In this document: positions 23,823 to 48,113 of the stretch, one piece after another
Layout: each line of letters opens with the position of its first letter
How positions within the stretch are numbered: position 1 is the first letter of the stretch
Assembly (NCBI GenBank): GCA_030386295.1
Contig: JANQAO010000003.1
Coordinates: forward strand, 1 to 48,113
Direction: 5' to 3'
Length of the DNA stretch: 48,113 nucleotides
DNA from: Candidatus Persebacteraceae bacterium Df01
Lineage (GTDB): Bacteria > Pseudomonadota > Gammaproteobacteria > Tethybacterales > Persebacteraceae
Position numbers and translations under genes: made by a program
Notes under the pieces: model-generated
What the model was told of the DNA's origin: nothing
Database searches by the model: none
Seen by the model: the letters and a program-made list of their open reading frames with translations, nothing else

Positions 23823-23824
23823 TT

Positions 23825-29094: not shown

Positions 29095-29606
29095 TACGCC
29101 TGCAGAGCGTTGCGTCGCGCGGCGTTAATATCAACCCCGTTAACCTCATGTATGTCCTGCTCTAGGTCAATTTTTCTGACGACACGACCATCTATAGTGT
29201 GCGCAAGTGTACGGATATTAATCAGGTAAGTCACTTGGATATTAGTGTCGCCAGCTCCGAGTGCTTCCCTGTTTTGTTCTCGCCACAGCCCACGAAAATC
29301 CCACCGCTCACGTCGATCTGCGCTGCCATCTGTATAGGTGGAGACGCAAGACACTTCTGTTCCCATAGAGTGAGGGTTCGCTGCCAGCGCCGCTAAAGCG
29401 GGGTGAGTGTCCATAATGCGCAATTCGGCGTCCATTTTTTCTAGTCGTCCTGTTGGAATGTCGAAGGCGCCACCGTGCCCTGGCATCGCGCTTTCTTCTA
29501 CCGATGCGGCGATATTAGGCGGCGTCCACTCAGCGTTGCCGATGTAAGAAATGCCGCCGACATACACCGCAACACCCGATATTTTTTTTGGTAGCGCTCT
29601 AGGCAT
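29094..29606 (-). CDS. Phage major tail tube protein (FII-like), copy B
   Basis: The 170-residue product is identical to the copy at 25898-26410, with the same TAATG junctions. It lies downstream of the frameshifted sheath copy. Confidence 0.88.
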   Translation of the reverse strand: MPRALPKKISGVAVYVGGISYIGNAEWTPPNIAASVEESAMPGHGGAFDIPTGRLEKMDAELRIMDTHPALAALAANPHSMGTEVSCVSTYTDGSADRRERWDFRGLWREQNREALGAGDTNIQVTYLINIRTLAHTIDGRVVRKIDLEQDIHEVNGVDINAARRNALQA

Positions 29607-31110
29607 TATGCTGCACTCCGGCGTGAGGCTTCGGCGATAATTTGTTCATTGTAGATATCAGTCACTCTTTGTTGAATAATTATATGCTCAGCGACATTAG
29701 CTATGCCTAAGGCAACGCTAAAAGTTACTCTATTCGCCGCGAGCGAGTCGGCGGTGTTTTGAGCCGGGTCAAAGGTAGCTTCCCCCCCCCAGTCAAGTTG
29801 CCGCGCACGGTTTGGTCGCGCAAAAAATTATTAAATCGCGTCAACACAAAATCAATAAATGGAATATCAACATTCCTATCAATCCAGTCGGCGACATATT
29901 CCCCAAGCGCCTTGCCAATTATTCGCTCTACACGGCGGTGCGTGATTAATGTGCCATTAACTAATCTATTCCCCCACAAATACACTCCGCCATCACGCCG
30001 CACTACAGTGGTGATGTATTCTTGGTTGAGGATGTTGGCGGTAGAGTTTGGATTATTGATTTCAAAGTCTACCGGAGTGGTAGCGCTCAGCACATCGCTA
30101 ATTGGTCTATTGCTGGGGCTGTTATGCCAGCCTTCATCCCCGTCAACACGGGCAATATGCCCGGCAACGAGTGCGGACGGGGGGCGAGCGACTACCTCCC
30201 CAGCATTAGCATCGTAAACATTGATACTAGGCCAGACCGCATAACAGGAGCCTAATCTACTACCATAACCAATCGCATCATTAAATGTAGCGCCAGAAAC
30301 ATCCACAATAGCAACCCCGCCCAAATCTTCGGCGGTGCTTTGTAGCGCGAAGGCTGCGGCTAGATTATCGGTGTGCCCGGTTGCGGCAATAATGGCAGGT
30401 GTTTTGCCGGTTTCGCTACTGGCGTCCAGCAGGGAATAAATCCCTGTGCGCGTAACCTTATCGCCGATAACATTGGCGAGCGTTGTCGCATCGTCCTCCC
30501 CGGCGTCAACACGAACGACTATGACGGTAGCGGCATTAAGTCCGCTGGTCCGCCACACATCCCCCACAGCCGCCGGCAAAGTGCCGATGTTACCGAGCGC
30601 GGCGGCAGCCGCAGAAGTGTTGATGATGACTGGTGTATTAATCGGATAAGGCTCGTCTCGCCCTCCCGCTAAACTAAAAACCGCAGTATCTCTAACCGTC
30701 CCAGTGCCATCCGAACCGGATGCTAAAGAAACAGTCAATAAGGCATTGGCCTCGTTATGTGCGGTGATGCCGGTAATGATTTCGGACGCTTTATTAGTTG
30801 GCGCGCCATCATTATCGGTGGAGAGAGTGATTGACACTAATCTGTCAACAACGGTAACGGATAGCGTTGTATTCGGCTTTCCGCCAATTAGGCGGACGCG
30901 GATAGAGTTCCCGGCGGCGCCACTGGTTGTGGCGGTATAAGTTAGTGCCGAGTTACCGCTGCCAGCGGTAGCGGCGGCAGGTAGAGCGCCGCCAACATTA
31001 TTGGCGGTGCCGACCAATCCGATGACGGATGTGTCGGATACGGTGACAGGAGTAGTTTGATTGGCGAGGTATTTAACTTCAACCCCATGTAGAGTGATTG
31101 ACATGCACAT
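29606..31110 (-). pseudogene. Tail sheath gene copy B, frameshifted in a C tract
   Basis: This copy has the genuine start: ATG 31110 (or 31104) with AGGA upstream, beginning MCMSITLHGVEVKYLANQ. The tract at 29782-29790 has nine C against seven in copy A, which shifts the frame and stops translation at 29725, so about 40 C-terminal residues are replaced. The body of the protein is a normal sheath with a Gly/Ala-rich N-terminal insertion domain and a C-terminal YVADWIDRNVDIPFIDFVLTRFNNFLRDQ segment. Correcting the tract would give about 500 residues. Confidence 0.82.
29782..29790. other. C9 homopolymer that breaks the sheath frame
   Basis: The tract is C9 here and C7 at 26586-26592 in the otherwise identical copy A. 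Slippage in such a tract, or a sequencing error, would switch the sheath gene off. Confidence 0.75.
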
Positions 31111-31135: not shown

Positions 31136-31211
31136 CTTGCGGTAATTTTTGGTCGGTTTAAAACCGCACCTTGCTTTGCCCCCTCATCCTAACCTTCTCC
31201 CCAATGGGGAG
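31136..31211 (-). repeat. 76-bp module-leading repeat, inverted partner of 43295-43370
   Basis: Read on the minus strand it matches 43295-43370 at 70 of 76 positions. It contains a CTCCCCATTGGGGAG palindrome, GGATGAG, GCAAAGCAAGGTGCGG, TTTAAACC and ATTACCGCAAG. It lies about 25 bp before the sheath start, with the ACCGCAAG end nearest the gene, the same relation the other copy has to the gene at 43402. Candidate late promoter and/or terminator of the preceding unit. Confidence 0.75.
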
Positions 31212-31299: not shown

Positions 31300-31690
31300 A
31301 AATTAATCGGTTGGCTCTTTTCCCGCTGCCAAAAATACGGCAGATGCGCTTGGTCGGGGGTTATTTCGAGGCGGGCGGCAATATCCGCACGTAAACTATC
31401 CTCATCAAGATACTCCTACCTCATCATAAAGCAGATATTGAGCGCGTAGCTCCCCACAAAATAACAACGGCAATATCTCTGTCAGTAATTTCTCCTCTAT
31501 ACGCATCAGCTTTTATCTTACCGTCTAGGTCATTTCGCCAAAAGGCGATATGGTCGCCATCGGTTTCTTGAGCGCTAGCTTCAAGTTTTGGGTTAACGCT
31601 AAGCGCTAACCACAAGATGGAGAGTAACCAATAATTTTTTAGGCAATTGCATCACTGGACATTACAACAAACAAGGTTATGAGGCTGGCC
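31300..31690 (-). pseudogene. Decayed short gene of unknown function
   Basis: On the minus strand a TTG-started frame (31615-31424) encodes a hydrophobic stretch then DGDHIAFWRNDLDGKIKADA, ending in SISAL. Continuations that look like protein occur in other frames just beyond (AQYLLYDE, then DEDSLRADIAARLEITPDQA to a stop near 31295). A one-base shift near the A6 run at about 31636 would also supply an ATG and a signal-like N-terminus. I read this as a frameshifted gene; no family is recognised. Confidence 0.35.
31591..31611. promoter_or_regulatory. 21-bp imperfect palindrome
   Basis: GGTTAACGCT-A-AGCGCTAACC pairs at nine of ten arm positions. It lies about 65 bp beyond the repressor stop within a decayed reading frame. 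A regulator operator is possible; nothing else supports it. Confidence 0.3.
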
Positions 31691-32321
31691 AAATCCTACA
31701 TGACCAGACGACGCGCCCAATAATCTCCATTGACTTAATATCTAACCCCTTTATTTTTATCGGTGGATATCCTTTTTTTGAGCTGATAAGGTCTATACTG
31801 TGGTGGTGTAGATGGACATACTTGATATACATTGTCCCTCGATAAACGAGTGCGCACGGCACATCTGCGGATGGTTCAGTTTGTGAGGTGGTGTCCACCA
31901 TTATGGCAGCGCCATCTTGTATATATGGCTCCATCGCGTCGCCTTGATTTTTTAACATCACCATATCATCAGGATTTAGGTGGTGTATATCCATAAAACT
32001 GCGAGGAAACACCCAAAAGCCATTTTCTTGTGGGTGATATTCTTTAATGTGACACCAGTGTTGGCTGCTTGTCTCTATACTAGGATGTTCTCCCCCCACT
32101 AACCAATCTAACGAAACCCCTGCGCCCTGAGCCAACTGGGCTGCACGGTCAACGCCCGGCATACCCCCGCTGATCCACTTCCGAAGTGATTCAGGCGGAA
32201 CGTCCCATAATTTCGCCGCGCGATGAATACTCATTTCCCCCAATATGAATTTCAGTCGGTCTGTAAAATTTTCCTTATAATGTGTAAAATTATTGTTTTT
32301 ATCATGTAAAATTGTTTTCAT
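31677..32321 (-). CDS. Phage repressor, HTH plus S24-like domain with Ala at the nucleophile
   Basis: This 214-residue protein has an N-terminal helix-turn-helix (about 20-60, AAKLWDVPPESLRKWISGGMPG) and a C-terminal LexA/CI-type S24 domain (about 105-205). In the normal GDSMEP motif the Ser is replaced: it reads QGDAMEP with Ala129, codon GCG; the partner Lys is probably K167. Such a protein should bind and dimerise but not cleave itself during SOS. It is transcribed leftward, divergent from the Ner-like gene, as the Mu c gene is. ATG 32321 overlaps the divergent ATG; a later start cannot be excluded because candidate operators lie within the first codons. Confidence 0.85.
   Translation of the reverse strand: MKTILHDKNNNFTHYKENFTDRLKFILGEMSIHRAAKLWDVPPESLRKWISGGMPGVDRAAQLAQGAGVSLDWLVGGEHPSIETSSQHWCHIKEYHPQENGFWVFPRSFMDIHHLNPDDMVMLKNQGDAMEPYIQDGAAIMVDTTSQTEPSADVPCALVYRGTMYIKYVHLHHHSIDLISSKKGYPPIKIKGLDIKSMEIIGRVVWSCRIWPAS
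32262..32313. promoter_or_regulatory. Three phased TGTAAAATT operator repeats with a TATAAT box
   Basis: TGTAAAATT occurs at 32262-32270, 32283-32291 and 32305-32313, spaced 21 and 22 bp, about two helical turns. A perfect -10 hexamer TATAAT (32276-32281) lies between the first two and would drive the rightward early genes; the -35 is poor. The arrangement fits repressor or Ner binding at the divergent control region. Confidence 0.6.
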
Positions 32322-32577
32322 GGTTATTTCCTGTGAAAAAACAGCAAAAAATGGGAAGGCAGAAAAACCGTATTATAGCTATGAAGCGGCTAAAGAACGG
32401 TTGAAGAGCGCCGGCGTGACTTACGCTGCTGCAGCCAAAAAAATAGGTGTAGCTGAGCACATAATAAACGACCTGCTCAATGGACGGCTCGCAGGGAACC
32501 GTGGAAAATGCCACAAGGCTGCAGTAGCACTCGGCATTAAACGCCACATAAAAATAAATATCAGGAGCGTAGTGTGA
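32320..32577 (+). CDS. Ner/Cro-like small DNA-binding protein
   Basis: This protein of about 85 residues has a single helix-turn-helix: YEAAKERLKSAGVTYAAAAKKIGVAEHIINDLLNGR. It lies divergent from the repressor and first in the rightward early region, the place of ner in Mu. The start is uncertain: ATG 32320 overlaps the repressor ATG and has no good ribosome site. Function as an early negative regulator is inferred from fold and position. Confidence 0.72.
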   Translation: MVISCEKTAKNGKAEKPYYSYEAAKERLKSAGVTYAAAAKKIGVAEHIINDLLNGRLAGNRGKCHKAAVALGIKRHIKINIRSVV

Positions 32578-34264: not shown

Positions 34265-35175
34265 CCAACAAACAAACATCTCTCCCTGCTGGGGAGAGTG
34301 AGAAGGGAAAAAACCTCCCCGCAACAGCGGCAATAACGCCGGACGCAATAATAAGGGCAATAAAGGCGGCAGTCACCGCCACCAAAAAAATGACGCCTGC
34401 CGCCGCTATCGGTGAATTACACAAAATAATACAGCTCAGCAACAGCGCCAACCAAATTTGTGTAGAGGCGAGATTACTTGTAGGGCAAAGGTTAGCGCAA
34501 CTCAAAGAGGAATGTGAGCACGGCGAACTAATAGAGGCATACAAAAACAATGGATTTACACGACAAAGAGCGGCAGAACTAATTGGAATATACGAGACTT
34601 TTTCGCAAATGTCCGCTGCGCGGACATTTGCCACCGAAAACTCATGGCGAACATTATTAGAGTGCCAGAAACTCACCGAAAGCGAGATTAACAGCTTAGT
34701 TTCAGGCGGAAAGGTGAGAGGAATAACTAGAGATACGATAGGCGATTATTCATATAGACAGCTCCGCCTCACGTTTGCCGAGGGCGCTAGCCCAGAAGTT
34801 ATAAAGCTCCAAAGCGAAAATCAAAAGCACAAGGAGGACAAGGGTGTTCTCCGCACTCAGCTCGATTTTGCGCGTCAACAAAACAAAGAGCTAGCCGCCA
34901 GCACCGCGGGCGAAAAGCACGCAGTTATAACGTGTGCGCAAGTGAGTAGCGCTATATCGCATTTAGAAACCACGCTATCACTGCTTCGCGACATGGCTTG
35001 GTCTATTGAGGAATACGGCACCGGCAACAGCCGACACAGTGGCGCCACCACCGAAGATTGTCATTATGCCCGCGCCAAGGCAAAAGAAAAATACACATTC
35101 TGGTGGCGTAAAAATAAAAACAGAATACTCGAAGAACTGAGGCATATCAGTAAGATGGCGGGTGATGAGACGTGA
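34261..35175 (+). CDS. DUF3102-like coiled-coil protein
   Basis: This 304-residue protein is mostly helical. Residues about 45-125 (EARLLVGQRLAQLKEECEHGELIEAYKNNGFTRQRAAELIGIYE) resemble the DUF3102 group seen on plasmids and phages; a coiled coil follows at about 185-220. Its first codons are encoded by one of the prophage hairpin repeats (SLPAGESEKG), so the N-terminus may have been captured from the repeat. The stop overlaps the transposase GTG start. Confidence 0.68.
   Translation: MTNKQTSLPAGESEKGKNLPATAAITPDAIIRAIKAAVTATKKMTPAAAIGELHKIIQLSNSANQICVEARLLVGQRLAQLKEECEHGELIEAYKNNGFTRQRAAELIGIYETFSQMSAARTFATENSWRTLLECQKLTESEINSLVSGGKVRGITRDTIGDYSYRQLRLTFAEGASPEVIKLQSENQKHKEDKGVLRTQLDFARQQNKELAASTAGEKHAVITCAQVSSAISHLETTLSLLRDMAWSIEEYGTGNSRHSGATTEDCHYARAKAKEKYTFWWRKNKNRILEELRHISKMAGDET
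34280..34307. repeat. Hairpin repeat inside a reading frame
   Basis: CTCTCCCTGCTGGGGAGAG followed by TGAGAAGGG is a member of the prophage hairpin family. It lies within codons 7-16 of the DUF3102-like gene. Confidence 0.65.
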
Positions 35176-36860
35176 GTAAATTTTTGTCCGCAACGGATAT
35201 CCAACGCACCGCAGCACTAGAGCGGGCTGCCTTAGCCGAAGCTGGCTGGCGTATTCGCGGCGACAAATTAAAACAAAAAACCCAGAGACTCGGCGCACTT
35301 GCCGCACGCCACGGAATAAAAAAGACAGCACTCTATAACTGGATGCAACGAGTGGCACAAGAGCCGCGCGAGCGCTGGGGCAAAGTGCTGGTCAACGCGC
35401 AAGCCGGCGGCGGCCAACGCACCGCTATACCGGTAGAAATTTGGACGGAATTTAAGGCACTCTATCTACGGTTAGAGCAGCCCACGCTGGCGGCGTGCTA
35501 CCGCTCTATATCAGCGACCGCACGGCGAAAAAATATAAATATACCAACAAAGCAGACTTTCCACAATCGGTTAAAAGAAGAGGTATCAGCGCCGGTGACG
35601 ACTATGTCGCGCAAAGGCGAAATAGCCGCGCTCGCCATGCTTGGCTCCCAGCAACGCGATGTGTCCACGCTCACATCAGCCGAAGCCCTCAATGGCGACG
35701 GCTACAAGCATAACGTTTTTGTTGTTGATGAGCGCGGCGAAATATATCGTCCGCATTCATGGTTTTGGCAATGTATCCGCAGCCGCCGAATTATGAGTTG
35801 GCGCACCGCCATCGCAGAAAATAAAGATACTCTGAGACTGTCCTTTTTAGATGTATGTAAGGAATGGGGAATACCCCGACACCTAGTGTTAGACAACACC
35901 CGCGCCGCCGCTAACAAGTGGTTGGCCGGCCAGCTGCCAGGGCGCAAGCGCTTCAAGAGCACAGATGAAGAGCTGCCAGGTGTCTGGGCGCAACTTGGTA
36001 TTAAAGTGCATAACACCAGCATCAACCGTGCCGAGAACGGCAGAGCTCGCGGTCATGGCCAAGCCAAACCAATAGAGCGTGCCTTTCGCGATTTTGACGA
36101 GTTTGATCGGCAGTTTTCTGGCGCTTACACGGGCAGAAACACAACAAAAAAGCCGGCTAATTATGGCGCTCATACAGTACCTTTAGCGGCCTTTAATGAG
36201 GCGTTAAAGACCTATATATCGGAGTTTAATGCCAGAGTTAAACGGCGCACCCACACCGCTAACGGCGAGAGCTACGACCAAGTATTTGCTCAAAACTACG
36301 AGGCGGATAGGCTCGCCAAGCTAAGCGGTGCTGACGAGATGTTGATGTTGTTGGCAGCAGAAAGCCGCAAAGTGCGCCCCGATGCAACCATCACCATCGC
36401 CGCGGGCGCCGCAGCAGGTTGCCCCAAAAACATATACAGCGCGAGTTTCTTGTACAAACACATCGGCGAACGGCTGATTGTGCGTTTTGACCCGCAGGAT
36501 TTGCACGGACCGCTGCAAGTTTTTGCGACAAACGGGAGGCACTTAGGCGCGGCTGAATGCGTTCACAAGATTGGCTTTTTTGACACGGATGCCGCTCGAG
36601 AATTACAGCGTTTTCGCCGGCGGCACTTGTCCGCACTGCGCGAGCAGATGCGAGCGCACCGCGGAGAAAGGCAAGTGCTCAGGCAGTTGTCTATACCACG
36701 CACCAAGTCAAGCGCTAAGCCAAACACTAAGGCAGATACTGCATCAAAGATTATTATCGCACCGCGAGCCGCGCCGCCCAGTGATTTAGGGGCGCAGCTC
36801 GCGGCACTTCACCAAAGCAAAAAAGAACGGAGAGACAATGAGCAGCACACAAACCATTAA
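35172..36860 (+). CDS. Mu A-type DDE transposase
   Basis: This 562-residue protein catalyses DNA strand transfer for replicative transposition. The DDE residues stand in the contexts typical of MuA: D176 in LNGDGYKHNVFV, D241 in LVLDNTRAAANKW, and E302 in GQAKPIERAF followed by GAYTG. The Mu-type C-terminal beta domain follows, then a Lys/Ala tail that in Mu contacts MuB. GTG 35172 overlaps the previous stop. All catalytic residues are present, so it could be active. Confidence 0.93.
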   Translation: MSKFLSATDIQRTAALERAALAEAGWRIRGDKLKQKTQRLGALAARHGIKKTALYNWMQRVAQEPRERWGKVLVNAQAGGGQRTAIPVEIWTEFKALYLRLEQPTLAACYRSISATARRKNINIPTKQTFHNRLKEEVSAPVTTMSRKGEIAALAMLGSQQRDVSTLTSAEALNGDGYKHNVFVVDERGEIYRPHSWFWQCIRSRRIMSWRTAIAENKDTLRLSFLDVCKEWGIPRHLVLDNTRAAANKWLAGQLPGRKRFKSTDEELPGVWAQLGIKVHNTSINRAENGRARGHGQAKPIERAFRDFDEFDRQFSGAYTGRNTTKKPANYGAHTVPLAAFNEALKTYISEFNARVKRRTHTANGESYDQVFAQNYEADRLAKLSGADEMLMLLAAESRKVRPDATITIAAGAAAGCPKNIYSASFLYKHIGERLIVRFDPQDLHGPLQVFATNGRHLGAAECVHKIGFFDTDAARELQRFRRRHLSALREQMRAHRGERQVLRQLSIPRTKSSAKPNTKADTASKIIIAPRAAPPSDLGAQLAALHQSKKERRDNEQHTNH

Positions 36861-37776
36861 CATTGAAGTGACAACAACAAGAAAAAAAATAATATCAATC
36901 AGAGATAGAGAAGGCTTGAGTATTGCAGAAATCTCACGCCAATCAGGCGTCAACAGCGGCGCCTTATCGACATACCTCAACGAAAAATACACCGGAGACA
37001 ACACGAAAATTGCAGAGAAATTAAAAAGTTGGCTCCGATTGCGCGAAGCAAAAGAAAAAGCGAAAAACATCAATCTGTCCCTTCATGTTGATGGTTTAGT
37101 CAATACGCAGCAATTATTGGGAGGATTAGAGTTAGCGCAAGTGTCGGCAGATATGGTTGCGTTTTATGGGGGCGCAGGTGGCGGCAAATCCCATGCCGCC
37201 CGCCAATATCAGCGCGACAATTCTAACGTATTTATTGTGACAGCAGAGCCCGCGCTGTGCTCTCTGTCATCGGTGATGCAGGCGCTGTGCCGCGCAGTCG
37301 GCGCCGATGAGGGTACTTGCGCGACAATGTCCCACAACATAGTAGAGGCGCTCAAAAACAGAAACGCATTATTAATAATAGACGAAGCCCATCACCTAAC
37401 CCCCCGCATTCTTGACCAACTCCGCTGTATTTATGACAAGATAAATTTGGGGGGCAACGATTTTGGAGTTGCTTATTTAGGGAACGAGCCCTTACTCAAA
37501 CAGCTAACATCAGGCTTAGCAATGAAGCAAATCCAGAGCCGTCTAGGCGTGTGCAGCGAACTGTTACCACCGCCGGCCGCAGACGGCCCATTATTATTGA
37601 GCGCGATTGTAGAGCGAAAGTTATCTATAGAAACTGAAATAAAAAGCTCTAACTGGGTAGCGGCGATAGGCGGCTACCGCGCCATAATCAAGCGAGTGCG
37701 CAGAGCAGCCGCACTCACGCGCAAGCAAATAAAAGACTTATCCGAAAAGGATATCTGCGATGCTAATAGTCACTAA
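36838..37776 (+). CDS. Mu B-type transposition ATPase
   Basis: This 312-residue AAA+ ATPase captures target DNA and activates the transposase. It has an N-terminal helix-turn-helix (about 27-62), Walker A GGAGGGKS at 111-118, Walker B ALLIIDEAHH at about 177-186, and a helical C-terminal domain. It overlaps the transposase gene by 23 bases, as expected for an A-B pair. Confidence 0.92.
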   Translation: MSSTQTINIEVTTTRKKIISIRDREGLSIAEISRQSGVNSGALSTYLNEKYTGDNTKIAEKLKSWLRLREAKEKAKNINLSLHVDGLVNTQQLLGGLELAQVSADMVAFYGGAGGGKSHAARQYQRDNSNVFIVTAEPALCSLSSVMQALCRAVGADEGTCATMSHNIVEALKNRNALLIIDEAHHLTPRILDQLRCIYDKINLGGNDFGVAYLGNEPLLKQLTSGLAMKQIQSRLGVCSELLPPPAADGPLLLSAIVERKLSIETEIKSSNWVAAIGGYRAIIKRVRRAAALTRKQIKDLSEKDICDANSH

Positions 37777-38056: not shown

Positions 38057-38449
38057 ATGACTAACCCATCCAATCGCCGAAACCTCCTCGCTCGTCTCCA
38101 TGTTCTAAAAAAAGAGTACGCCCTTGATGACGACACCTATAGAGCTAAGTTATACGTGGCAACCAAAAAAACAACCGCTGCAGACTGCACCAATCCAGAA
38201 ATCAAAAAAGCAATAAACGCCTTTGATGCGCCTTCCCCACCGCCAGAATTTGACAACAAAAAAATAAAGAGTAAATGCTGGGCGCAAGCATTTGAACTGA
38301 CCGGTGGCAATGGCACCATCGCCGCTAAGAATTATCTCCAGGGATTAGCCAAAAAAATGACAGCGGGTAAGGATTTTTTTACTGCAACCGGCGGCGAACT
38401 GCACGACATGGCCGCCGCCATGGCAATTAGACAAAATAAAAGGAGGTAA
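38057..38449 (+). CDS. gemA: GemA-like regulatory protein (Mu gp16, DUF1018)
   Basis: This 130-residue protein shows the DUF1018 layout: RRNLLARLHVLKKEYALDDDTYRAKL at the start and a KCWAQAFELTGG-type helix later. In Mu, GemA modulates host gene expression and replication and lies shortly before mor, matching the next gene here. The 3' end carries AAAAGGAGG, which serves as ribosome site for that gene. Confidence 0.85.
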   Translation: MTNPSNRRNLLARLHVLKKEYALDDDTYRAKLYVATKKTTAADCTNPEIKKAINAFDAPSPPPEFDNKKIKSKCWAQAFELTGGNGTIAAKNYLQGLAKKMTAGKDFFTATGGELHDMAAAMAIRQNKRR

Positions 38450-39415: not shown

Positions 39416-39916
39416 GTGCCACGGCTCCACACACTCAAAAAAAAACCAAAGGCGGAGGCCATCGCCAATCGCGCGCTTGTCGCCGGCAAGACCATCGCCG
39501 AAGCCACCCAAGAAATCAATGAAGCAGGGCACCCAGTCAGCTCTAGTTCGGTAGGGCGTTACCGCCAAAACCACTTTAATAAATGGCTAGAAGCTAAGCG
39601 CCGAATAGACGCGCTTGCCGAGGCGTTAGTTAAAGAAGGCGGGGCAACTGAGCCCTCAAAAATGATGCTCATCGCGAGAAATGTCGGAATGAATTTATTG
39701 GTTCAAGCGGATGAAGGGGCGGTTAGCGCCGATGATGCGAATAAGCTTGTATCGGCGATGATGAATATAGAGAAAACCGAGGCACTAATTGACCGCCGCG
39801 TAGCTCGCGAGCTCGCGGCAACCCAAAAAGAAATGAAAGATGACGCCAGCGACGCTATCTCCGGTGAGAAGAAAAAACTAGAAGCCGCGATTAGTCGGCT
39901 ATATGGTGGTGCCTAA
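39416..39916 (+). CDS. Mu gp27-like protein (DUF3486), probable small terminase
   Basis: This 166-residue protein has an N-terminal helix-turn-helix (AEATQEINEAGHPVSSSSVGRYRQN) and a helical remainder. DUF3486 proteins lie directly before the large terminase in Mu-like phages and probably recognise phage DNA for packaging. The start is GTG 39416. It overlaps the broken terminase by 14 bases. Confidence 0.82.
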   Translation: MPRLHTLKKKPKAEAIANRALVAGKTIAEATQEINEAGHPVSSSSVGRYRQNHFNKWLEAKRRIDALAEALVKEGGATEPSKMMLIARNVGMNLLVQADEGAVSADDANKLVSAMMNIEKTEALIDRRVARELAATQKEMKDDASDAISGEKKKLEAAISRLYGGA

Positions 39917-40474
39917 CTTACTCTCCCAAGCACTAGTAGGCCTATATGAATATCAACGTAGATGGTTGGCCGACCAATCACGCTTTAAGGTAGGTTATTT
40001 TTCCCGGCAGGCGGGGAAGACATTTCAGTTATCATTAGAAATAGCCATAGAAGCCGCCAAAAAAAGTTCGGCAAAAACCGAAGTAAGGGCGTGATGTTTA
40101 GCGTAGCGAGTAAGCTGGATATGGCGACTCGTGGCAAGCAGTTTTTTGATAAAAAAATATGCATCCCTGCCGGCGACACGGCACTGCGAGGCGACCTTCA
40201 CAGTTTGCGCTGTATCCCCAGCATTGGTGGAGCGCCGCGCTTTGTGGTTGACGGTGACGGCGAGAGTCGCGCCGATAGAACGTGGGCTCTTTTTCTTGCA
40301 CTTCGTGCGGCAGATTGTGGCCTCGCCACATACGCCCACCACGGCGTTCCGCGTCACCGGAATAATAATAATAAAGACAGACCCAACAATAGCGACGACC
40401 TAAAATTAAGCCGGCACACAAAAACGGGCATCAGAAGCGGGGAGGTTAGTTCACCCAGAGGAGTTTATAGGTGA
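39903..40474 (+). pseudogene. Large terminase remnant (Mu gp28-like), internal deletion
   Basis: The N-terminal 60 residues (YEYQRRWLADQSRFKVGYFSRQAGKT, including the P-loop region) run to a TGA at 40094. A second frame (40091-40474) carries what looks like the extreme C-terminus (IPAGDTALRGDLHSLRCIP, GESRADRTWALFLALRAA). Full gp28-type terminases are above 500 residues; only about 190 codons remain, with the ATPase Walker B and nuclease regions missing. DNA packaging by this protein is impossible. Confidence 0.85.
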
Positions 40475-40545: not shown

Positions 40546-42045
40546 ATGTCTAGGATACTAGATCCTGATGGCGAGCCGCTCACCGCCGACCCCAAAAAGC
40601 TAACCGAGCAGCTCGCGCGAGCTCGCGCTTTCGGCGTCCGCAATCCATATAACCGAACCGAGCAACTAAGGTGGTTGAACCCATCTAGGTTGGGCAATAT
40701 ATATAGAGGAGTTAACGATAACGGCGACATGCAAGAATTTGCCGAACTCGCGGAAGAAATAGAGGAACACGATGCTCACTATAGAGTATTACTCCAGCAG
40801 CGAAAATTAGCAACATCCAGCCGAAGGTGGCAAATAGAACCAGCAGGAATAAGCGCAAGAGATACAGTAGTCGCCACAGTGGTAAGCGATGTATTGAACT
40901 CCCCCGAATTCTCAAAATGCGTTCTTGATTTGCTGGATGGGATTGCCAAGGGCTACTCAGTCGTAGAAATAGTGTGGGCAGTACAAGACGGCATTTTATT
41001 GCCGGTATCTTATGATTGGGTGGATGCTAGATTAATAGTATTCAGCAGAGAAGACGGCAAGACCCCACTAATAATAACGGACAACCCATCTCCCGCTGCC
41101 GAAGCGGGAATGGTCGGCCGCGCCGCGCTCCCCTTATCGCCGGCAAAATTCATTAGTCACACGCCCCAAACTAAATCAGGATTACCGGGCCGCGGCGGGA
41201 TAGCAAAGCCCGCAATGATGCTGCAGATGTTGAAGGGTTATGCAGTTCGGGATTGGTGGGCGTTTATAGAAGTTTTTGGTCTGCCCACAAGAATCGGTAA
41301 ATACGGTCCTGAGGCCAGCGATGATGATATAGATACTTTAGTCACAGCGGTATCTCAATTAGCCAGCGATGCAGGGTGTGTCATCCCCGCGAGTATGGAA
41401 ATAGAATTCATTCAAACGGGAAAAAGCGCAAGCAGTAATGGCCACGCACTATTCGAGGCCAGCGCGAAGTGGTGCGACTCGCAGCTCAGTAAATTAGTAC
41501 TGGGCGGCACAATGACCGCCGACGATGGCTCATCATTGAGCCAAGCGCAAATCCATTATGACGTGCGTGAAGATTTAGTGGAGGACGATGCGCAGCAGTT
41601 AGCGATGACGGTTTTAAAAGATTTAGTTCGCTGGATTGTGGGCTTGAATTTTGACGGCGCCGCCGCCCCCAAAATATCGCTTCCCGCAGACGACAACGAA
41701 GACGCATTGGCGATATTAGACCGTGTAGAACGCGCGACTAACCTAGGGCTGACAGTAAATAAGAGCTGGCTTCAATCCCTTATGGCGCTGCCGCTACCAA
41801 AAGATGATGATGACACGCTAATCGCCAAAACTGCGCCTCCAGAAACTAACGCCCTAAATGCCGATGAAGAGGAGAATGATGATTACGGCAACTGGATGGC
41901 GGTAGTCAATAACAGAGAAAAGAAAATAAGAGATGCACTAAAAGGCGCCGAATCCCCGAATGATTTTGTGGATCGCGGAATATCACAACCCCTAGACAAA
42001 ACAACGGTAGATGAGCTCGCGCTCCAAAGATTTGCGCGGCGGTAG
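40546..42045 (+). CDS. Portal protein (Mu gp29-like, DUF935)
   Basis: This 499-residue protein appears full length. DUF935 features are seen: EHDAHYRVLLQQRKLATSSRRWQIEP, a MLQMLKGYAVRDWWAFIEVFGLPTRIGKY segment, and LVLGGTMTADDGSSLSQAQIH. The portal forms the ring through which DNA enters the head, and in tail-only particles it would have no use; that it is intact while terminase is not suggests the losses are recent. Confidence 0.9.
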   Translation: MSRILDPDGEPLTADPKKLTEQLARARAFGVRNPYNRTEQLRWLNPSRLGNIYRGVNDNGDMQEFAELAEEIEEHDAHYRVLLQQRKLATSSRRWQIEPAGISARDTVVATVVSDVLNSPEFSKCVLDLLDGIAKGYSVVEIVWAVQDGILLPVSYDWVDARLIVFSREDGKTPLIITDNPSPAAEAGMVGRAALPLSPAKFISHTPQTKSGLPGRGGIAKPAMMLQMLKGYAVRDWWAFIEVFGLPTRIGKYGPEASDDDIDTLVTAVSQLASDAGCVIPASMEIEFIQTGKSASSNGHALFEASAKWCDSQLSKLVLGGTMTADDGSSLSQAQIHYDVREDLVEDDAQQLAMTVLKDLVRWIVGLNFDGAAAPKISLPADDNEDALAILDRVERATNLGLTVNKSWLQSLMALPLPKDDDDTLIAKTAPPETNALNADEEENDDYGNWMAVVNNREKKIRDALKGAESPNDFVDRGISQPLDKTTVDELALQRFARR

Positions 42046-42059
42046 AAGGAGAGAACAAA

Positions 42060-42098
42060 TGAATGAAAAGCCCAGCAAGATTGCGCGCTCAAGGTGAC
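42060..42098 (+). other. Vestigial 12-codon frame with good ribosome site
   Basis: AAGGAG precedes ATG 42060 by nine bases, but the frame stops after MNEKPSKIARSR. In Mu-like phages the gp30/F head gene starts here, so this may be the leftover start of a deleted gene, or a leader peptide. Confidence 0.3.
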
Positions 42099-42100
42099 GG

Positions 42101-42601
42101 ATGTTAGTTAATATAGTTGAGGCATCGCACCGCTGGGAAAAATCGCGCTGGCCAAATTTTTCGGTAGGGGAAATGTCCTGTCCCTGCTGCGGTGAAGTGT
42201 GGTGGGCACCAAGCGAGTTTGACCGCATCCAATTATTAAGAACAAACCTACAGCGACCGGTTGCACTCAATTCAACGCACCGTTGTCGCCGACATAACGC
42301 ATTAGTCGGAGGCGCCCCCCTATCGGAGCACAAGAAAATCGCCTTTGATTTCTCGCTCTCACGCGGGCGCAACATCAGAAAAGATATGGAAGCGTTATCT
42401 GTGCTTCAATCTCACATGCTCAGAGTAGGCTTTGGCAGTTTCGGTCTATATGGAACATTTATTCATTGCGACTCGAGGGTGGGGCGCTTTTGGGTGACAC
42501 CAGCAGGAAAGAACTGGAGCCAATATTTCCGCCGAGTTTCCTCTCTCTCTATTGGGGAGAGACCGAGTGAGGCAGCCTCAAAACAGGAGACAAAAAAATG
42601 A
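42101..42601 (+). CDS. Peptidase M15-type endolysin
   Basis: This 166-residue protein belongs to the M15_3 family: FSVGEMSCPCCGE, NSTHRCRRHNALVGGAPLSEHKKIAFDFS with the His and Asp metal ligands, and FGLYGTFIHCDSR with the last His. It cleaves cell-wall peptides at lysis. No signal peptide is seen, so it depends on a holin. The last 25 residues are encoded by a hairpin repeat (SLSIGERPSEA), a changed C-terminus. Confidence 0.85.
   Translation: MLVNIVEASHRWEKSRWPNFSVGEMSCPCCGEVWWAPSEFDRIQLLRTNLQRPVALNSTHRCRRHNALVGGAPLSEHKKIAFDFSLSRGRNIRKDMEALSVLQSHMLRVGFGSFGLYGTFIHCDSRVGRFWVTPAGKNWSQYFRRVSSLSIGERPSEAASKQETKK
42541..42580. repeat. Hairpin repeat at the 3' end of the endolysin gene
   Basis: CTCTCTCTCTATTGGGGAGAG followed by ACCGAGTGAGGCAG is a close relative of the copy at 38691, here translated in the endolysin frame. 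Confidence 0.65.
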
Positions 42602-43260
42602 TTCAATTAATAAAATTAATTTTAGTAGCGGCAGTACGCGACTTCTGGCAGTGCCACGGTTGGAAGGCAATCATCCTATTAATAGTAGGTGCAATCATAT
42701 TTTCGTCAATAGGCAGAGCCGAAGCCGCGCCGGCATTAAGCGATGTAGTAGGCGCGGTAACCGGCGTAGCGTCAGGCGCAGCGAGCGGAGGTCTATTGGG
42801 ATTGGCCGGTAGCGCGGTCGGTGGTGTCTTTAAGTGGCTTCGCGCAAAACAGGAGTTAGTCCAAAAAGAAAAGTTATGGGCACACGAATTAAAACTCCAA
42901 GAGTTAAATTTAAAGGCAAAATCAGAAGAAACCGAACAAGAGATATTGTTAGCAGACAGCCGTGGCAGCTGGCAATCGTTAGACGCGAGTATTAACGCAG
43001 ATGCCGCAACATCAGCAACCGCTCCGCCGTGGGCGACTGGAATAAAAACTCTATTCCGTCCAGTGTTGACGCTACTACTGTTAGCGCTTAGTGGGATAAT
43101 AATCTACTGGTTAATGCAGGGTAATCTCCCAGACATGATAGGCAGCCAAACCGCTGAGCGATTATTAATTTATGGTATAGAGGCCGTAGTATTCAGCACA
43201 AGCACGGCGATAGTGTGGTGGTTTGGCGACAGAAGCTTCGCTCCCCACCGCTTCAAGTGA
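42598..43260 (+). CDS. Phage holin, 3-TM type
   Basis: This 220-residue protein has an N-terminal membrane helix (about 24-42), a Gly/Ala-rich segment, a charged amphipathic helix (about 85-120), then two C-terminal membrane helices (about 152-172 and 190-210). The order fits the GTA_holin_3TM group. It overlaps the endolysin stop by four bases (ATGA), forming a lysis cassette. Confidence 0.75.
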   Translation: MIQLIKLILVAAVRDFWQCHGWKAIILLIVGAIIFSSIGRAEAAPALSDVVGAVTGVASGAASGGLLGLAGSAVGGVFKWLRAKQELVQKEKLWAHELKLQELNLKAKSEETEQEILLADSRGSWQSLDASINADAATSATAPPWATGIKTLFRPVLTLLLLALSGIIIYWLMQGNLPDMIGSQTAERLLIYGIEAVVFSTSTAIVWWFGDRSFAPHRFK

Positions 43261-43271
43261 CCTCAAAAAAG

Positions 43272-43294
43272 TCCCTTCTCCCCATTGGCGAGAA
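43272..43294. repeat. Hairpin repeat adjoining the 76-bp element
   Basis: CCCTTCTCCCCATTGGCGAGAA is a degenerate extra copy of the palindrome directly before the 76-bp element, so two copies stand in tandem behind the holin gene. Confidence 0.55.
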
Positions 43295-43370
43295 CTCCCC
43301 ATTGGGGAGAAAGCTAGGATGAGGAGGCAAAGCAAGGTGCGGTTTTAAACCACCCCAAAATTACCGCAAG
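43295..43370 (+). repeat. 76-bp module-leading repeat, inverted partner of 31136-31211
   Basis: It matches the reverse complement of 31136-31211 at 70 of 76 positions. It lies about 30 bp before the head-protease remnant gene, where Mu has its late promoter for gene I. It includes the CTCCCCATTGGGGAG palindrome and ends in ATTACCGCAAG. Confidence 0.75.
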
Positions 43371-43401
43371 AAAAAAGCAAAAAAGGCAAGATAATAAGTG
43401 C

Positions 43402-43767
43402 ATGAACTTATTAGAGTTGCCTATTGAGAATATCCAACCGCAAGGTGTTAGAGACCCATTAACAATAGAGCGCGTGAAAGTTCTGCCAGCCGCCAACAAA
43501 GCTGGCGCGATAAAAGGCAGAGATGGTCGAGTTTTTAATGTTGCTGATATGGGCGCTTTGGCAGCTGCCCTAAACAGACAAACCCCAGCAACCAGAGTGG
43601 ATATAGACCATAAAACAGAAAAATCTGCATACTCCTGTACGGCATCTAAATTTTTCACAAAGCATGGCGCCGCGTCAACAGACGACAATGAGTTATTCCA
43701 ACGCCTAGAAATCATAGACACCGATTGGTTGAGTGGTACGGACTTTTCATCAGGAACAATAAAATGA
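43402..43767 (+). pseudogene. Head protease/scaffold remnant (Mu gpI-like N-terminus)
   Basis: This 121-residue frame begins like Mu-type prohead proteases (VKVLPAANKAGAIKGRDGRVF, then RVDIDHKTEKS in place of the usual DYEHQT), then departs from the family after about 75 residues. Complete proteases have about 350 residues. The remaining 45 residues are of unknown origin, perhaps the tail end of a deleted gene. No capsid gene follows. Confidence 0.65.
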
Positions 43768-44018
43768 TGAGATCTAAAAAGGCCGCCGCCATTAGCGTAA
43801 AAACATCAAACGGCATATCGGTATTTCACCGTGCAGGTCGAAAGTTCACCAGCGTAGCCCGCACCCTGTTAGCCCAAGAGTTAACAGAAGGCGACATAGC
43901 CGGACTAGAGAACGAGCCCAATTTAGTTGTTGAGGTTGTTTCTGCTGTAGCCGCAGAGCCGGCTAAGAAGCCCAAAACAGCTACGGCGACAGAACGTAAA
44001 ACTACCCAACCCAAATAA
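43764..44018 (+). CDS. Mu gp35-like protein (HI1506-related)
   Basis: This 84-residue protein shows VFHRAGRKFTSVARTLLAQELTEGDIAGLENEPNLVVEVV, the core of the HI1506-related family, followed by a Lys/Thr-rich tail. In Mu-like phages it follows the major capsid gene directly; here it follows the protease remnant. The ATGA overlap sets the start. Confidence 0.75.
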   Translation: MMRSKKAAAISVKTSNGISVFHRAGRKFTSVARTLLAQELTEGDIAGLENEPNLVVEVVSAVAAEPAKKPKTATATERKTTQPK

Positions 44019-44021
44019 TGA

Positions 44022-44501
44022 ATGGCATCCCAATTCATCACCGCCGCCGCCGCCAAACAATTAATCGGCGTAAATAATATAGCGCTTCTCGCACCGGACG
44101 AAGCCGTTGAAAGCGGTATAGATGAGGCGCGATTGAGCGCGGTTGTAGAAGACGTCAATTCAAGAATTGACAGTGAAATAAGCAAGCGATACGACATTCC
44201 GCTTCCGGACGAAGCGATACCGGGGTGGCTACAGACATCAGCCAGTTACTTAATTTTTTATCAACTGGCGCAGACAGATAGCGAAGTCACCGAGCTGATG
44301 AGCGACAGAAACAATCAGGCGTTAAAAGACATCCGCCGCATCGGTAGCGGCGAGATAAAACTAAAAATATCGGACACCGATAACACGGTCAATGCAGGCC
44401 GAACGAAGCAAGGCCGCGCGTTCTCCGTCAATGACGAAGGCGCCGGCGAAGCTGTCAACAAGAGAGTATTTAAGCGGTCTTTAACCGCAGGCATGACATG
44501 A
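44022..44501 (+). CDS. Mu gp36-like head-tail connector (DUF1320)
   Basis: This 159-residue protein has typical DUF1320 features: an N-terminal helix, RLSAVVEDVNSRIDSEISKRYDIPLPD, and a DIRRIGSGEIKL segment. It is part of the neck of Mu-like virions. Four-base overlap with the next gene. Confidence 0.85.
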   Translation: MASQFITAAAAKQLIGVNNIALLAPDEAVESGIDEARLSAVVEDVNSRIDSEISKRYDIPLPDEAIPGWLQTSASYLIFYQLAQTDSEVTELMSDRNNQALKDIRRIGSGEIKLKISDTDNTVNAGRTKQGRAFSVNDEGAGEAVNKRVFKRSLTAGMT

Positions 44502-44830
44502 GCGAGGCGATTATTACCATTGAAGCGCGGGAGCTCTTAAAGCTAGGAGATATTTTAATTCGCGCCGCAAAAAAACTTACGCGCGATGAATTGAGCGCAT
44601 CAATCGCCGCAGCGGGCGAGTCGGTGACACAAGAAAGAATAGTCAGCGCAGGTAGCGGCAGCAGTGATTTAACAGGGCACGAGCCTCACGGCGAGACGTG
44701 GAGCGATAGCGGTGAGGCCTACGCCGCTTGGGCCTCCGCCCGCCCCTTTGTCGGTTCCGGGCCAAAAGAAAAACAAGTCATAACTGAAGAGCTCACTAGA
44801 GCTTTGGAGGAGATAGTCAGTGTCTATTAG
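44498..44830 (+). CDS. Tail completion/virion morphogenesis-like protein
   Basis: This 110-residue protein's C-terminal GHEPHGETWSDSGEAYAAWASARPFVGSG followed by a helix resembles the end of phage virion morphogenesis and tail completion proteins, though it is short. It lies between the DUF1320 and DUF1834 genes and overlaps both. Assignment is tentative. Confidence 0.55.
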   Translation: MSEAIITIEARELLKLGDILIRAAKKLTRDELSASIAAAGESVTQERIVSAGSGSSDLTGHEPHGETWSDSGEAYAAWASARPFVGSGPKEKQVITEELTRALEEIVSVY

Positions 44831-45368
44831 TGACAGTTTAATTGCCATTCAAGCGGGCATCACAGCAATTTCAGAAATAAAGCAATGTGATTTTTATGAT
44901 GGCACATTAGACAAAGATGAAAGCATAAAAAATATCAGCATAATACCCCCCGCAGTTTTAGTCACTTGCGTAAGAAGCAGTGTCACCGCGCAATCAACCA
45001 ACGATTATGCAGAAGGCTCACTAGGTCCTGACACGAGGGAGTCTGACTACACTTTTATGGACACCGCGAGTTTTGCTGTTAGCCTGATTGTAAAGGACGA
45101 ACCCCTATTCCCGAGAGCTCCACGAGCGTGGGAGTTGGCGACCAAAATCAACCGAGTATTAATACCCCGCGCCGCGCGAAATGTAGCGTGGAGAAACGCC
45201 TACAGCCAAGAGCTGTATGACAATGGGTTGTTTTTATTGTCGGCTACGTGGGACGAAAATATATTAAACAGTCCGCCCCCTCAAGACCGATACACCCCCG
45301 CAAAAATAACCGCAGATAATGGCGCCAGCAGTGACACAGTTTGGCCGCGAGAGCAGCAAGTGCAATGA
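44820..45368 (+). CDS. Mu gp37-like protein (DUF1834), probable tail terminator
   Basis: This 182-residue protein begins with two helices, followed by ISIIPPAVLVTCVRSS and a strand-rich part, the look of DUF1834. In Mu-like phages gp37 follows gp36 and closes the tail tube. Its stop overlaps the baseplate V start. Confidence 0.68.
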   Translation: MSISDSLIAIQAGITAISEIKQCDFYDGTLDKDESIKNISIIPPAVLVTCVRSSVTAQSTNDYAEGSLGPDTRESDYTFMDTASFAVSLIVKDEPLFPRAPRAWELATKINRVLIPRAARNVAWRNAYSQELYDNGLFLLSATWDENILNSPPPQDRYTPAKITADNGASSDTVWPREQQVQ

Positions 45369-45940
45369 ACAACAGCGATACAATAAAGATGCTCCACCGC
45401 CGACTGGTGGCGGTAGAAAAACGAGTAGTCAGAATGATTACGCCCGGCGTAGTCGCCCAAGTTCAGGCAGAGCCTTACGCAGTGAAAGCCAACTTAGCTC
45501 CGCACGGTGAACCAGAACAATTAACTGATTGGTTACCGGTATCACAGCACCGCACTGCATCCGATATGCGAACTTTTATGCCGGTTGGTGTTGGCACTCA
45601 CGGATTATTAATCGCGGCTAACGGCGAGATGAACGCCGGCTTTTTTGTTGCTGGATTTTGTGGTGCCACCACACCGCCAGCCGTAGACATAGAAAAAAGA
45701 ACACACGTAGCCAAGATAGAAATGGATGGGGTGTACATGACGATAAATAAAAATGAGAACACTATCGATATAACAGCAGTAAAAGGGGTCACCATCACTG
45801 GTCCCCTAAGAGTGAACGGAAAAATAACCGCAGCCGATGACGTAGAAATTTTAGACGGCGTGACATTAAAAACACATAAGCACCCACAGAATAACGGTAA
45901 TGATTTCGGTGGTGGCGCAATAACTGGGGTGGCGCAATGA
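45365..45940 (+). CDS. Baseplate assembly protein V (tail spike)
   Basis: This 191-residue P2 gpV/Mu gp45-like puncturing spike has an N-terminal OB-like domain (MITPGVVAQVQAEPYAVKANL, DWLPVSQHRT) and a beta-helical stalk (IDITAVKGVTITGPLRVNGKIT). A terminal HKHPQNN holds the metal-binding His pair of the spike tip. The ATGA overlap sets the start at 45365. Confidence 0.9.
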   Translation: MNNSDTIKMLHRRLVAVEKRVVRMITPGVVAQVQAEPYAVKANLAPHGEPEQLTDWLPVSQHRTASDMRTFMPVGVGTHGLLIAANGEMNAGFFVAGFCGATTPPAVDIEKRTHVAKIEMDGVYMTINKNENTIDITAVKGVTITGPLRVNGKITAADDVEILDGVTLKTHKHPQNNGNDFGGGAITGVAQ

Positions 45941-46272
45941 GCCGCATCTCATCCAGAGATTTCGCCCGCACAATAACCGCTCGCGAGTCCCTTGAGCAGC
46001 GATTAGGAGACGCTCTCCGCTTTCGGCGAGGCACCGTTCCGGGCGCAAGAAATTACGGCAGTCATCTAATAGATGTAATAGACCGCAGCGCCGACAAAAA
46101 TTTATTTTCGCTTATTTTTCGCGGGGTAGCCGAAGCGATAAGACACCCAGCCAACGGAGTCCAAGACCTTCGACTAACGCGCGTGAGTGTAGCGGCAATC
46201 GCCAACACCTACGAAGTGACAGTCCATTGTTTTTACAGGGGGGCGGCGGTAAGCCTACCGGTAATCATATGA
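45937..46272 (+). CDS. Baseplate protein W (gp25-like)
   Basis: This 111-residue protein of the gp25/W family includes LGDALRFRRGTVPGARNYGSHLIDVIDRS, close to the family's conserved RxGTxPxxxxyGs stretch. It is a wedge component of contractile baseplates, linked by ATGA overlaps to V and J. Confidence 0.88.
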   Translation: MSRISSRDFARTITARESLEQRLGDALRFRRGTVPGARNYGSHLIDVIDRSADKNLFSLIFRGVAEAIRHPANGVQDLRLTRVSVAAIANTYEVTVHCFYRGAAVSLPVII

Positions 46273-47150
46273 GCATTCCTCTATCAAAACTAACTCCCCC
46301 GGCAATTAATGGCCTATTAAAAGACCCAGAAGAGATAATGGCGGAGATAGTAGCATGGTTTTCATTAAACAACTACGACCTAACCGCCGCACCATCCGAC
46401 CCCGCCTACAGAGTTTTATTGGCAGCCGCGCAAAGAGAGAGTAATCTCCGAAGTGTTTATCATGATGCAATCCAAGGCCTGTCACTGGCCTACGCTTGGG
46501 GCGCAGAGTTAGACACCATAGGCGGCACCTATTATGGTGTAGAGCGATTAATCGGTGAAGAAGACGAAGCCTACAGACAGCGAATAGCAGACACCCCGGA
46601 TCGATTTGCGATAGGTTTGTCTGGCGGTTGGTATGAACAAAATGCCATAGCGGTGCCTGGAGTCTTCGCGGCACAAATGGACAGCCCGACTCCCGGCGTT
46701 GTGAATGTATATATCCAAGCTGATGAGACCCTACTAGATAACAACGATAATATTATTTACGCTGATGGTGTACCGACTCAAGAATTATTAAATACAGTGA
46801 CCGCAACAATCACGGCGCCGAACATAAGACAGCAAACCGATGATGTGAGAGTTCTCGCGGCAACGCCAATAGGTTATGAGGTAACGGTATCACTAACCCC
46901 GCGTTCCGGCCCCGATGCTAGCATCGTCCGCGCAGAAGCGGAGACCGCATTAACCCAAATCTTGATAGAGCGTGATAGATTGGGAGAAAAAATCAACAAC
47001 GCAATAATCGCAGGCGCCGTCCACGTCCCAGGCGTGTATGAGGCATCGATAACGATAACAAGACTATCGGACAATGCAGTGGTGCCTGAATTGGTAGCAG
47101 CAACAGGCGAATTTCCTAGAAGCGCTGCCGTAACAGTAGGAGTTAACTAA
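46269..47150 (+). CDS. Baseplate protein J
   Basis: This 293-residue protein is a P2 gpJ-like baseplate wedge protein: AAQRESNLRSVYHDAIQGLSLAYAWGAELDTIGGTYYGVERL and EEDEAYRQRIADTPDRFAIGLSGGWYEQNAI. ATG 46269 overlaps the W stop. In P2 gene I follows at once; here about 400 bp intervene. Confidence 0.9.
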   Translation: MSIPLSKLTPPAINGLLKDPEEIMAEIVAWFSLNNYDLTAAPSDPAYRVLLAAAQRESNLRSVYHDAIQGLSLAYAWGAELDTIGGTYYGVERLIGEEDEAYRQRIADTPDRFAIGLSGGWYEQNAIAVPGVFAAQMDSPTPGVVNVYIQADETLLDNNDNIIYADGVPTQELLNTVTATITAPNIRQQTDDVRVLAATPIGYEVTVSLTPRSGPDASIVRAEAETALTQILIERDRLGEKINNAIIAGAVHVPGVYEASITITRLSDNAVVPELVAATGEFPRSAAVTVGVN

Positions 47151-47277
47151 TGCCAATAATCAACGCCAGTAACAGAGGCAATTGTCGCGAGCGAACACAA
47201 TGTTCTTGGCAGCTTAGACGGAGTTTGAGCCGCGTTCATTACCGAGAAATGATTTGACACTTAAAAAATGAAAAAAA
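47151..47277. other. Degenerate stretch after J with A-rich 10-bp repeats
   Basis: A 35-codon frame opens at ATG 47151, and the next frame carries VTEAIVASEHNVLGSLDGV interrupted by TGA codons, so a small gene may have decayed here. The 3' end has three units of an A-rich decamer ending in ATG (47261-47290). Confidence 0.35.
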
Positions 47278-47499
47278 ATGAAAAAAAATGAAATATTAAA
47301 AAAATCGACAATGACAATCCGGGCACGAGTGAAAGAATTGACAAATGCAACGGGCGACCACGCATCGAATTTAAAGGAGGCAATAGAGCTTCACATAGAC
47401 GAGCTGGACAACCGAATTGACGAAAAGACATGGCCGCACCTAGCGGGAACTTTAGCGGCAGGCATAGTAATCGGCGTAATAGCCGCAAAATTACTATGA
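47278..47499 (+). CDS. DUF883/ElaB-YqjD-like small membrane protein
   Basis: This 73-residue protein has an N-terminal amphipathic helix (RARVKELTNATGDHASNLKEAIELHIDELDNRIDEK) and a C-terminal Gly/Ala membrane helix (AGTLAAGIVIGVIAAKLL). The layout fits DUF883 proteins, cellular inner-membrane proteins that bind ribosomes. It is out of place between baseplate J and I; likely a cargo gene. An inner start at 47311 is possible. Confidence 0.6.
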   Translation: MKKNEILKKSTMTIRARVKELTNATGDHASNLKEAIELHIDELDNRIDEKTWPHLAGTLAAGIVIGVIAAKLL

Positions 47500-47507
47500 A
47501 CAAAAAT

Positions 47508-47541
47508 ACCCTTCTTCTCCTTAGGGAGAAGCTTAGGATGA
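47508..47541. repeat. Hairpin repeat before gene I
   Basis: CTTCTCCTTAGGGAGAAG followed by CTTAGGATGAG shares the palindrome and GGATGAG part of the 76-bp element, between the DUF883-like gene and gene I. Confidence 0.6.
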
Positions 47542-47555
47542 GTGTGCAATCTTAA

Positions 47556-48113
47556 ATGCCGACAATCCTCCCCACAACAAGCAGCGGCGCGGAGCGCCGG
47601 CTAGACGAGAGTACCGATAATAGGTTAGCAAAAATCCCCCGAGCAAGCGGCACCAACGGCCTAATCTCCTCACTATACAATCCGGACACAATCACCCCCG
47701 AACTCCTATCAGTCTTAGCTTACGCGCTAAGCGTAGACAGATGGGACGCAGAATGGTCGGACGACAGCAAGCGAGAAGTTCTCCGTGAAGCCGCAGAACT
47801 CCACAGGATAAAAGGGACAGACCAAGCGGTAATCGGCGCGCTAGCAACAGCTGGAATATACGTTCAAATCAGGCATTGGTATGAAGCCGACGGCGCGAGC
47901 TGGCCGACAGAGTTTCAGGCAAACGGTAACCCGTTACCGTTCACAATGGTAATAATAATTAACTCCATCGCCGCCGGTGCTCAAGCGCACCAAACGAAAA
48001 AAATAATAGAAAATAATAAACGCGCCAGCGTTCATTATCAAGTGATAACTCAAGCATCGAGCCAGGGCGACATATACGTAACCGTCGGCGGTGTTTGGGA
48101 GACACTAGGCCGC
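47556..48113 (+). CDS. Phage tail protein I, 3' end outside window
   Basis: The frame is open from ATG 47556 to the right edge (186 codons). The P2 gpI pattern is clear: LAYALSVDRWDAEWSDDSKREVLREAAELHRIKGTDQAVIGAL, followed by a Trp-rich stretch. Protein I joins the baseplate wedge to tail fibres, so fibre genes should follow beyond the window. Confidence 0.88.
   Translation, partial: MPTILPTTSSGAERRLDESTDNRLAKIPRASGTNGLISSLYNPDTITPELLSVLAYALSVDRWDAEWSDDSKREVLREAAELHRIKGTDQAVIGALATAGIYVQIRHWYEADGASWPTEFQANGNPLPFTMVIIINSIAAGAQAHQTKKIIENNKRASVHYQVITQASSQGDIYVTVGGVWETLGR

Follow-up and report, generated by a model that had tools for sequence, protein, structure and literature searches.

Has a Mu-like prophage that lost head genes and kept its tail and lysis genes been turned into a tailocin, or has it simply decayed? 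The question is raised by a 27.6-kb element in Candidatus Persebacteraceae bacterium Df01 (GCA_030386295.1), most of which lies in the stretch of DNA analyzed here: a window of 48,113 bases, the first of contig C3 (JANQAO010000003.1; 455,906 bases), in a 1.53-Mb genome of five contigs. The element runs from window position 22044 to about C3:49666, some 1.55 kb beyond the window end. We read it as a defective, recently decayed and rearranged Mu-like prophage, with a probability of roughly 0.83. It would descend from a transposable phage that combined a head of Mu type with a contractile tail of P2 type, and the damage that followed has affected both.

Head and packaging genes

The original prediction held that only lysis genes and a protease stump remain between the portal and a gp35-like gene, that gp30/F and the major capsid gene are absent, and that the terminase is gutted. 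The features of this block agree with all three statements:

39416-39916, plus strand, terminase small subunit, near full length (phrog_426, E=2.9e-6)
39903-40094, plus strand, N-terminal remnant of the terminase large subunit (phrog_2, E=4.7e-5; 40% to residues 24-70 in Vibrio phage martha)
40091-40474, plus strand, C-terminal remnant of the terminase large subunit in another frame (phrog_5909 positions 194-269 of 285, E=1.6e-8)
40546-42045, plus strand, portal protein, intact (Pfam Portal_Mu, E=1.3e-85)
42101-42601, plus strand, endolysin, a peptidase (phrog_894, E=2.7e-16)
42598-43260, plus strand, holin-like protein (phrog_6637, E=4.5e-14; 35% match in L017; called a holin from its position)
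43402-43767, plus strand, N-terminal remnant of the head maturation protease, 121 of about 320 residues (phrog_328, E=8.6e-5)
43725-44018, plus strand, gp35-like protein, likely start 43765 (FluMu_N, E=6e-4, below the family cut-off)
44022-44501, plus strand, gp36 head-tail adaptor (Pfam Phage_Mu_Gp36, E=4.3e-16)
44498-44830, plus strand, neck/tail completion protein (phrog_26, E=2.2e-4)
44820-45368, plus strand, protein in the gp37/38 position (assigned by position; weak phrog_490 match, E=0.0019)

The large terminase (tL) survives as its first ~60 residues and a C-terminal piece in a different frame, the latter in agreement with three reference terminases, and ~370 residues are missing. The protease remnant covers the first quarter of its family profile (29% to residues 4-70 of the martha protease). 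F/gp30 and capsid queries taken from several phages gave no match at E<=0.05 anywhere in the element; the same queries succeeded in nearly all of the relatives tested. Wherever a contig permits a view, the reference phages and sampled relatives keep the order tL-portal-F-protease-capsid-gp35, and beside them the block here is visibly gutted. Because the relatives of gp35, found directly 3' of the capsid gene in four genomes, span 106-158 codons from stop to stop, the gp35-like gene is nearly full length.

To explain the state of the head block, no fewer than three separate deletions or losses are required: an internal deletion in the terminase, the loss of F, and a deletion running from the protease through the capsid. 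Among tL, portal, F, protease and capsid, the portal alone is intact, and a head block this incomplete makes the element a defective descendant rather than a functional phage. A two-row capsid profile, searched without a positive control in this genome, found nothing elsewhere. The search past position 48113 that had been suggested brought a fibre gene (H) to light, and no capsid of this type anywhere in the genome.

The sole capsid found in the genome belongs to a second, distantly related Mu-like prophage of siphophage type (C3:173296-203522). The element could thus be imagined as a satellite that has no capsid of its own and borrows that of its neighbor, which looks complete, with its own terminase, portal, protease and capsid. 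However, the broken terminase would leave the element unable to direct packaging by itself, the head proteins of the supposed helper are distant (portal 23%), and no packaging or capsid-remodelling genes were recognized, making this arrangement extremely improbable. The second prophage has a siphophage-type tail, and its ends both begin TGATTT, with a 5-bp direct repeat AACAA.

Contractile-tail genes

The remaining structural genes encode a P2-type tail, and the prediction that nearly all of them are kept, along with the transposase, MuB and lysis genes, was correct:

22251-23210, minus strand, tail protein D, intact (phrog_52, E=2.9e-36)
23201-23410, minus strand, tail protein X, intact (phrog_46, E=8.4e-14)
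23403-23822, minus strand, tail protein U, intact (phrog_76, E=8.7e-21)
23825-25507, minus strand, tape measure T, full copy of 560 residues (phrog_1533, E=1.6e-10)
25614-25898, minus strand, tail protein E, copy 2 (phrog_166, E=1.8e-10)
25898-26410, minus strand, tail tube FII, copy 2 (phrog_55, E=1.9e-21)
26410-27819, minus strand, tail sheath FI, copy 2, N-terminal 31 residues missing (phrog_23, E=2e-56)
27744-28703, minus strand, tape measure copy truncated at the duplication junction (self-comparison)
28810-29606, minus strand, tail E and tube FII, copy 1, identical to copy 2
29725-31110, minus strand, tail sheath FI, copy 1, N-terminus present and C-terminus frameshifted (alignment of phage sheaths)
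24654-31048, no strand, 3.2-kb tandem duplication (24654-27849 / 27850-31048, 99.9% identical; self-BLAST)
45341-45940, plus strand, baseplate spike V (phrog_9992, E=9.5e-10)
45937-46272, plus strand, baseplate wedge W (phrog_43, E=4.7e-13)
46227-47150, plus strand, baseplate J (phrog_6, E=2.3e-31)
47556-48113, plus strand, tail protein I, running past the window (28-31% matches to I in three viral contigs)
C3:48188-49606, fibre H, followed by the right end of the element at C3:~49666

The tandem duplication has its breakpoints within the sheath gene on one side and within the tape gene on the other, and as a result one sheath copy is missing 31 residues at its start; the second copy keeps its start and is frameshifted near its end by a 2-base difference in a run of C. 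Aligned with four phage sheaths, neither copy is complete. Furthermore, the tail genes form two opposed blocks on opposite sides of the repressor, with V, W, J, I and H pointing rightward at the right side and FI, FII, E, T, U, X and D leftward at the far left. In three annotated phages (H905, AcaML1 and ZRG1), V-W-J-I-H-FI-to-D is one colinear operon on one strand, and three viral contigs have J-I upstream of FI on the same strand. The suggestion of ordinary recent decay, also made in the original prediction, is supported by this damage to the tail: neither sheath copy is whole, one of the tape copies is cut short and the operon is split. In the sequence of events that we favor, the duplication left no complete sheath gene, and inversions, at least one of them through recombination at a 76-bp repeat, would have divided the tail operon. 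The element would then no longer be able to make a phage or a contractile tail.

The competing suggestion was a tailocin, emerging or in use, in which head loss was selected and tail and lysis genes were kept, so that headless contractile tails are released to kill competitors. R-type tailocins, including the P2-derived pyocins and BceTMilo and the Mu-derived tailocin of P. syringae, resemble the element in having tail and lysis genes (here an endolysin and a holin-like gene) and no capsid, and the three head-block lesions are confined to the head. Since Mu-derived R-type tailocins are already known in P. syringae (PMC12090994), such an element would be no new kind. However, the set of sheath, tube, tape, baseplate and fibre lacks a complete sheath gene, the other members being present, and the tail genes are divided into opposed blocks, whereas the P2-derived BceTMilo keeps the order of its tail block, with a break just outside it (PMC5411513). 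Tailocins are described as being without head, replication and packaging genes (PMC12090994); this element has lost capsid and F but retains portal, small terminase, gp35, gp36, MuA and MuB. An intact transposase and portal, useless to a tailocin, argue against this reading, which we consider very unlikely. The sheath was also not found in two genomes of the same family and two of the same order, although its absence there is weak evidence because these are drafts of other genera.

The pattern that suggested a tailocin is, moreover, common in decay. In a survey of 1384 prophages (PMC7744054), ordinary incomplete ones had preferentially shed the genes for terminase, portal, capsid and lysis, and showed an enrichment of those for tail fibre and transposase; head loss with the tail kept is therefore, by itself, no sign of domestication or of a tailocin. 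The element resembles such cryptic or incomplete prophages in its preferential loss of packaging genes and its retained tail and transposase, and differs from many of them in that portal and lysis genes are still intact. As a decayed prophage, it would illustrate clearly how gene loss biased to the head can mimic domestication, and which checks separate the two: whether the sheath is intact and the tail operon colinear, what has become of the transposition genes, and whether relatives conserve the element.

Several points weigh against decay. Its main weakness is that the sheath lesions depend on a homopolymer run and a tandem duplication, features that are both prone to assembly error. The portal, the lysis genes and 13 of the 14 tail genes have intact reading frames, and no close relative is available for measuring selection on the tail genes (as the ratio of nonsynonymous to synonymous substitution, dN/dS). 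The selective head loss noted originally holds by gene count, with 4/8 head genes lost vs 1/14 tail genes (Fisher p=0.04); counted as independent lesions, three in the head vs three in the tail, the head bias vanishes (p=0.62), both counts being our own classification and the test merely indicative.

The first of these points would matter most if the assembly were partly wrong, that is, if the duplication or the difference in the C-run were unreal and the tail set more complete than it appears. The two duplication copies do differ mainly in a homopolymer run. Against such an artefact, the duplication junction carries its own two-base signature, and neither the split of the tail operon nor the deletions that affect terminase, F, protease and capsid depend on the duplication. 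We regard a partial artefact as unlikely.

Relatives of the head and tail

The closest parallels to the element outside its tail are the Mu-like myophages Vibrio phage martha 12B12 and Shewanella phage vB_SspM_MuM16-2, which have regulatory, transposition and head genes in the same order and are 41% identical to it in the portal, ~36-41% in MuA and ~31% in MuB. Unlike the element, with its gutted head and P2-type tail, both carry a tail of Mu type and have terminase, F, protease and capsid complete. The nearest sheaths, ~35% identical, instead come from the P2-type tails of Aliivibrio phage H905, Vibrio phage Valp1, Acidithiobacillus phage AcaML1 and Pseudomonas phage ZRG1. These tails share the gene set V W J I H FI FII E T U X D; their operon is colinear, whereas that of the element is split and inverted and contains a tandem duplication. 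Queries with J, D, sheath, portal and MuA found no exact sister phage in viral contigs, nor did queries with portal and sheath among 369 genomes of the class.

The P2-type tail genes (22251-31110 and 45341-48113) accompany MuA/MuB and a head of Mu type; among the closest Mu-like relatives examined, tails are of Mu type or of another kind. The element unites the head of one phage type with the tail of another, and it also shows how a prophage in a small genome can be rearranged, probably through repeats.

Repeat R, transposition and the insertion site

The repeat at which the tail operon may have been split, here called R, is present in two inverted copies:

31136-31211, minus strand, left copy of the 76-bp repeat R, upstream of the sheath (inverted match to 43295-43370, 92%)
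43295-43370, plus strand, right copy of the 76-bp repeat R, upstream of the protease remnant

This pair sits at two breakpoints, including the tail-operon split. A third copy lies on another contig at C4:22037; with three copies only in the genome, R as a widespread genomic repeat was ruled out. A 690-bp remnant next to an aconitase gene (C4:21530-22219) follows window positions 31717-31136 (98%) through R into 43295-43476 (95%). The remnant thus joins the sides of R otherwise than the window does, for which recombination at R within this phage lineage seems the simplest account. A short open reading frame at 31424-31615, between the repressor and R, is near-identical to the remnant and has no family match.

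The inverted copies of R enclose the repressor, MuA/MuB, terminase, portal and lysis genes, and the 12.2-kb segment between them could flip. One could also imagine a mobile tailocin at an early stage of its origin from a Mu-head/P2-tail hybrid, with headless tails still made, transposition genes kept and this segment flippable, if the sheath lesions came from misassembly or were restricted to part of the population. This we find even more doubtful than an ordinary tailocin.

The regulatory and transposition genes, with the candidate left end, are as follows:

31677-32321, minus strand, S24-type phage repressor, intact (Pfam Peptidase_S24, E=3.1e-12)
32293-32577, plus strand, small open reading frame in the ner-gene position (only its position beside repressor and transposase)
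35172-36860, plus strand, MuA-type transposase, intact (Pfam DDE_2, E=2.4e-58)
36838-37776, plus strand, MuB-type ATPase (Pfam AAA_22, E=1e-13)
38057-38449, plus strand, GemA/gp16 (Pfam GemA, E=2.2e-7)
22044-22250, plus strand, candidate left end of the element, TGATTTAAAAA... (likeness to the right end read inwards)

The transposase keeps all DDE catalytic residues (invariant D176, D241 and E302) and, judged by sequence, its pairing with the MuB-type ATPase places the element among Mu-like transposable phages, as a defective one. With MuA, MuB and both ends present, transposition is perhaps still possible. The element may accordingly be a defective mini-Mu-like one that still transposes in its host with the structural genes as passive cargo, a state compatible with decay and no alternative to it. 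The intact repressor and recognizable ends favor this idea; the genome, however, holds a single copy and the 690-bp internal remnant, and the present site shows no target-site duplication. We consider it a tentative possibility.

The left end at 22044 (TGATTTAAAAATAAAA) is similar to the right end, which reads inwards TGATTATAAAA... from C3:~49666; 2/500 shuffles scored equally. The right end was placed where a methyltransferase-like fragment no longer matches its intact paralogue (C3:448.6k), giving the junction ...CACTGTGT then TGATTATAAAAAC... Both ends start TGATT, and a matching 5-bp target duplication was looked for at the flanks and not found (aacaa / acaca). The methyltransferase-like gene is a fragment at one flank, and its remainder is not on the left side. 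Because the flanking 5-mers differ and the rest of this gene is missing there, the insertion site itself has probably been rearranged. A colinear ancestral order with D at the right end was ruled out as the present state, since the right end lies ~60 bp past the fibre gene.

Host genes flank the element on either side, a DUF1326 gene (21291-21911) on the left and a DUF2182 gene (C3:50874-51611) on the right. These adjoin each other in both same-family genomes compared, so ~29 kb has been inserted between them here. The interval between the element and the DUF2182 gene (C3:49665-50728) holds host gene fragments, namely a methyltransferase-like N-terminus and a split DUF3500 gene. A flanking host protein is 65% identical to a protein of the gammaproteobacterial metagenome-assembled genome MEX2-MAG1, the nearest named relative found.

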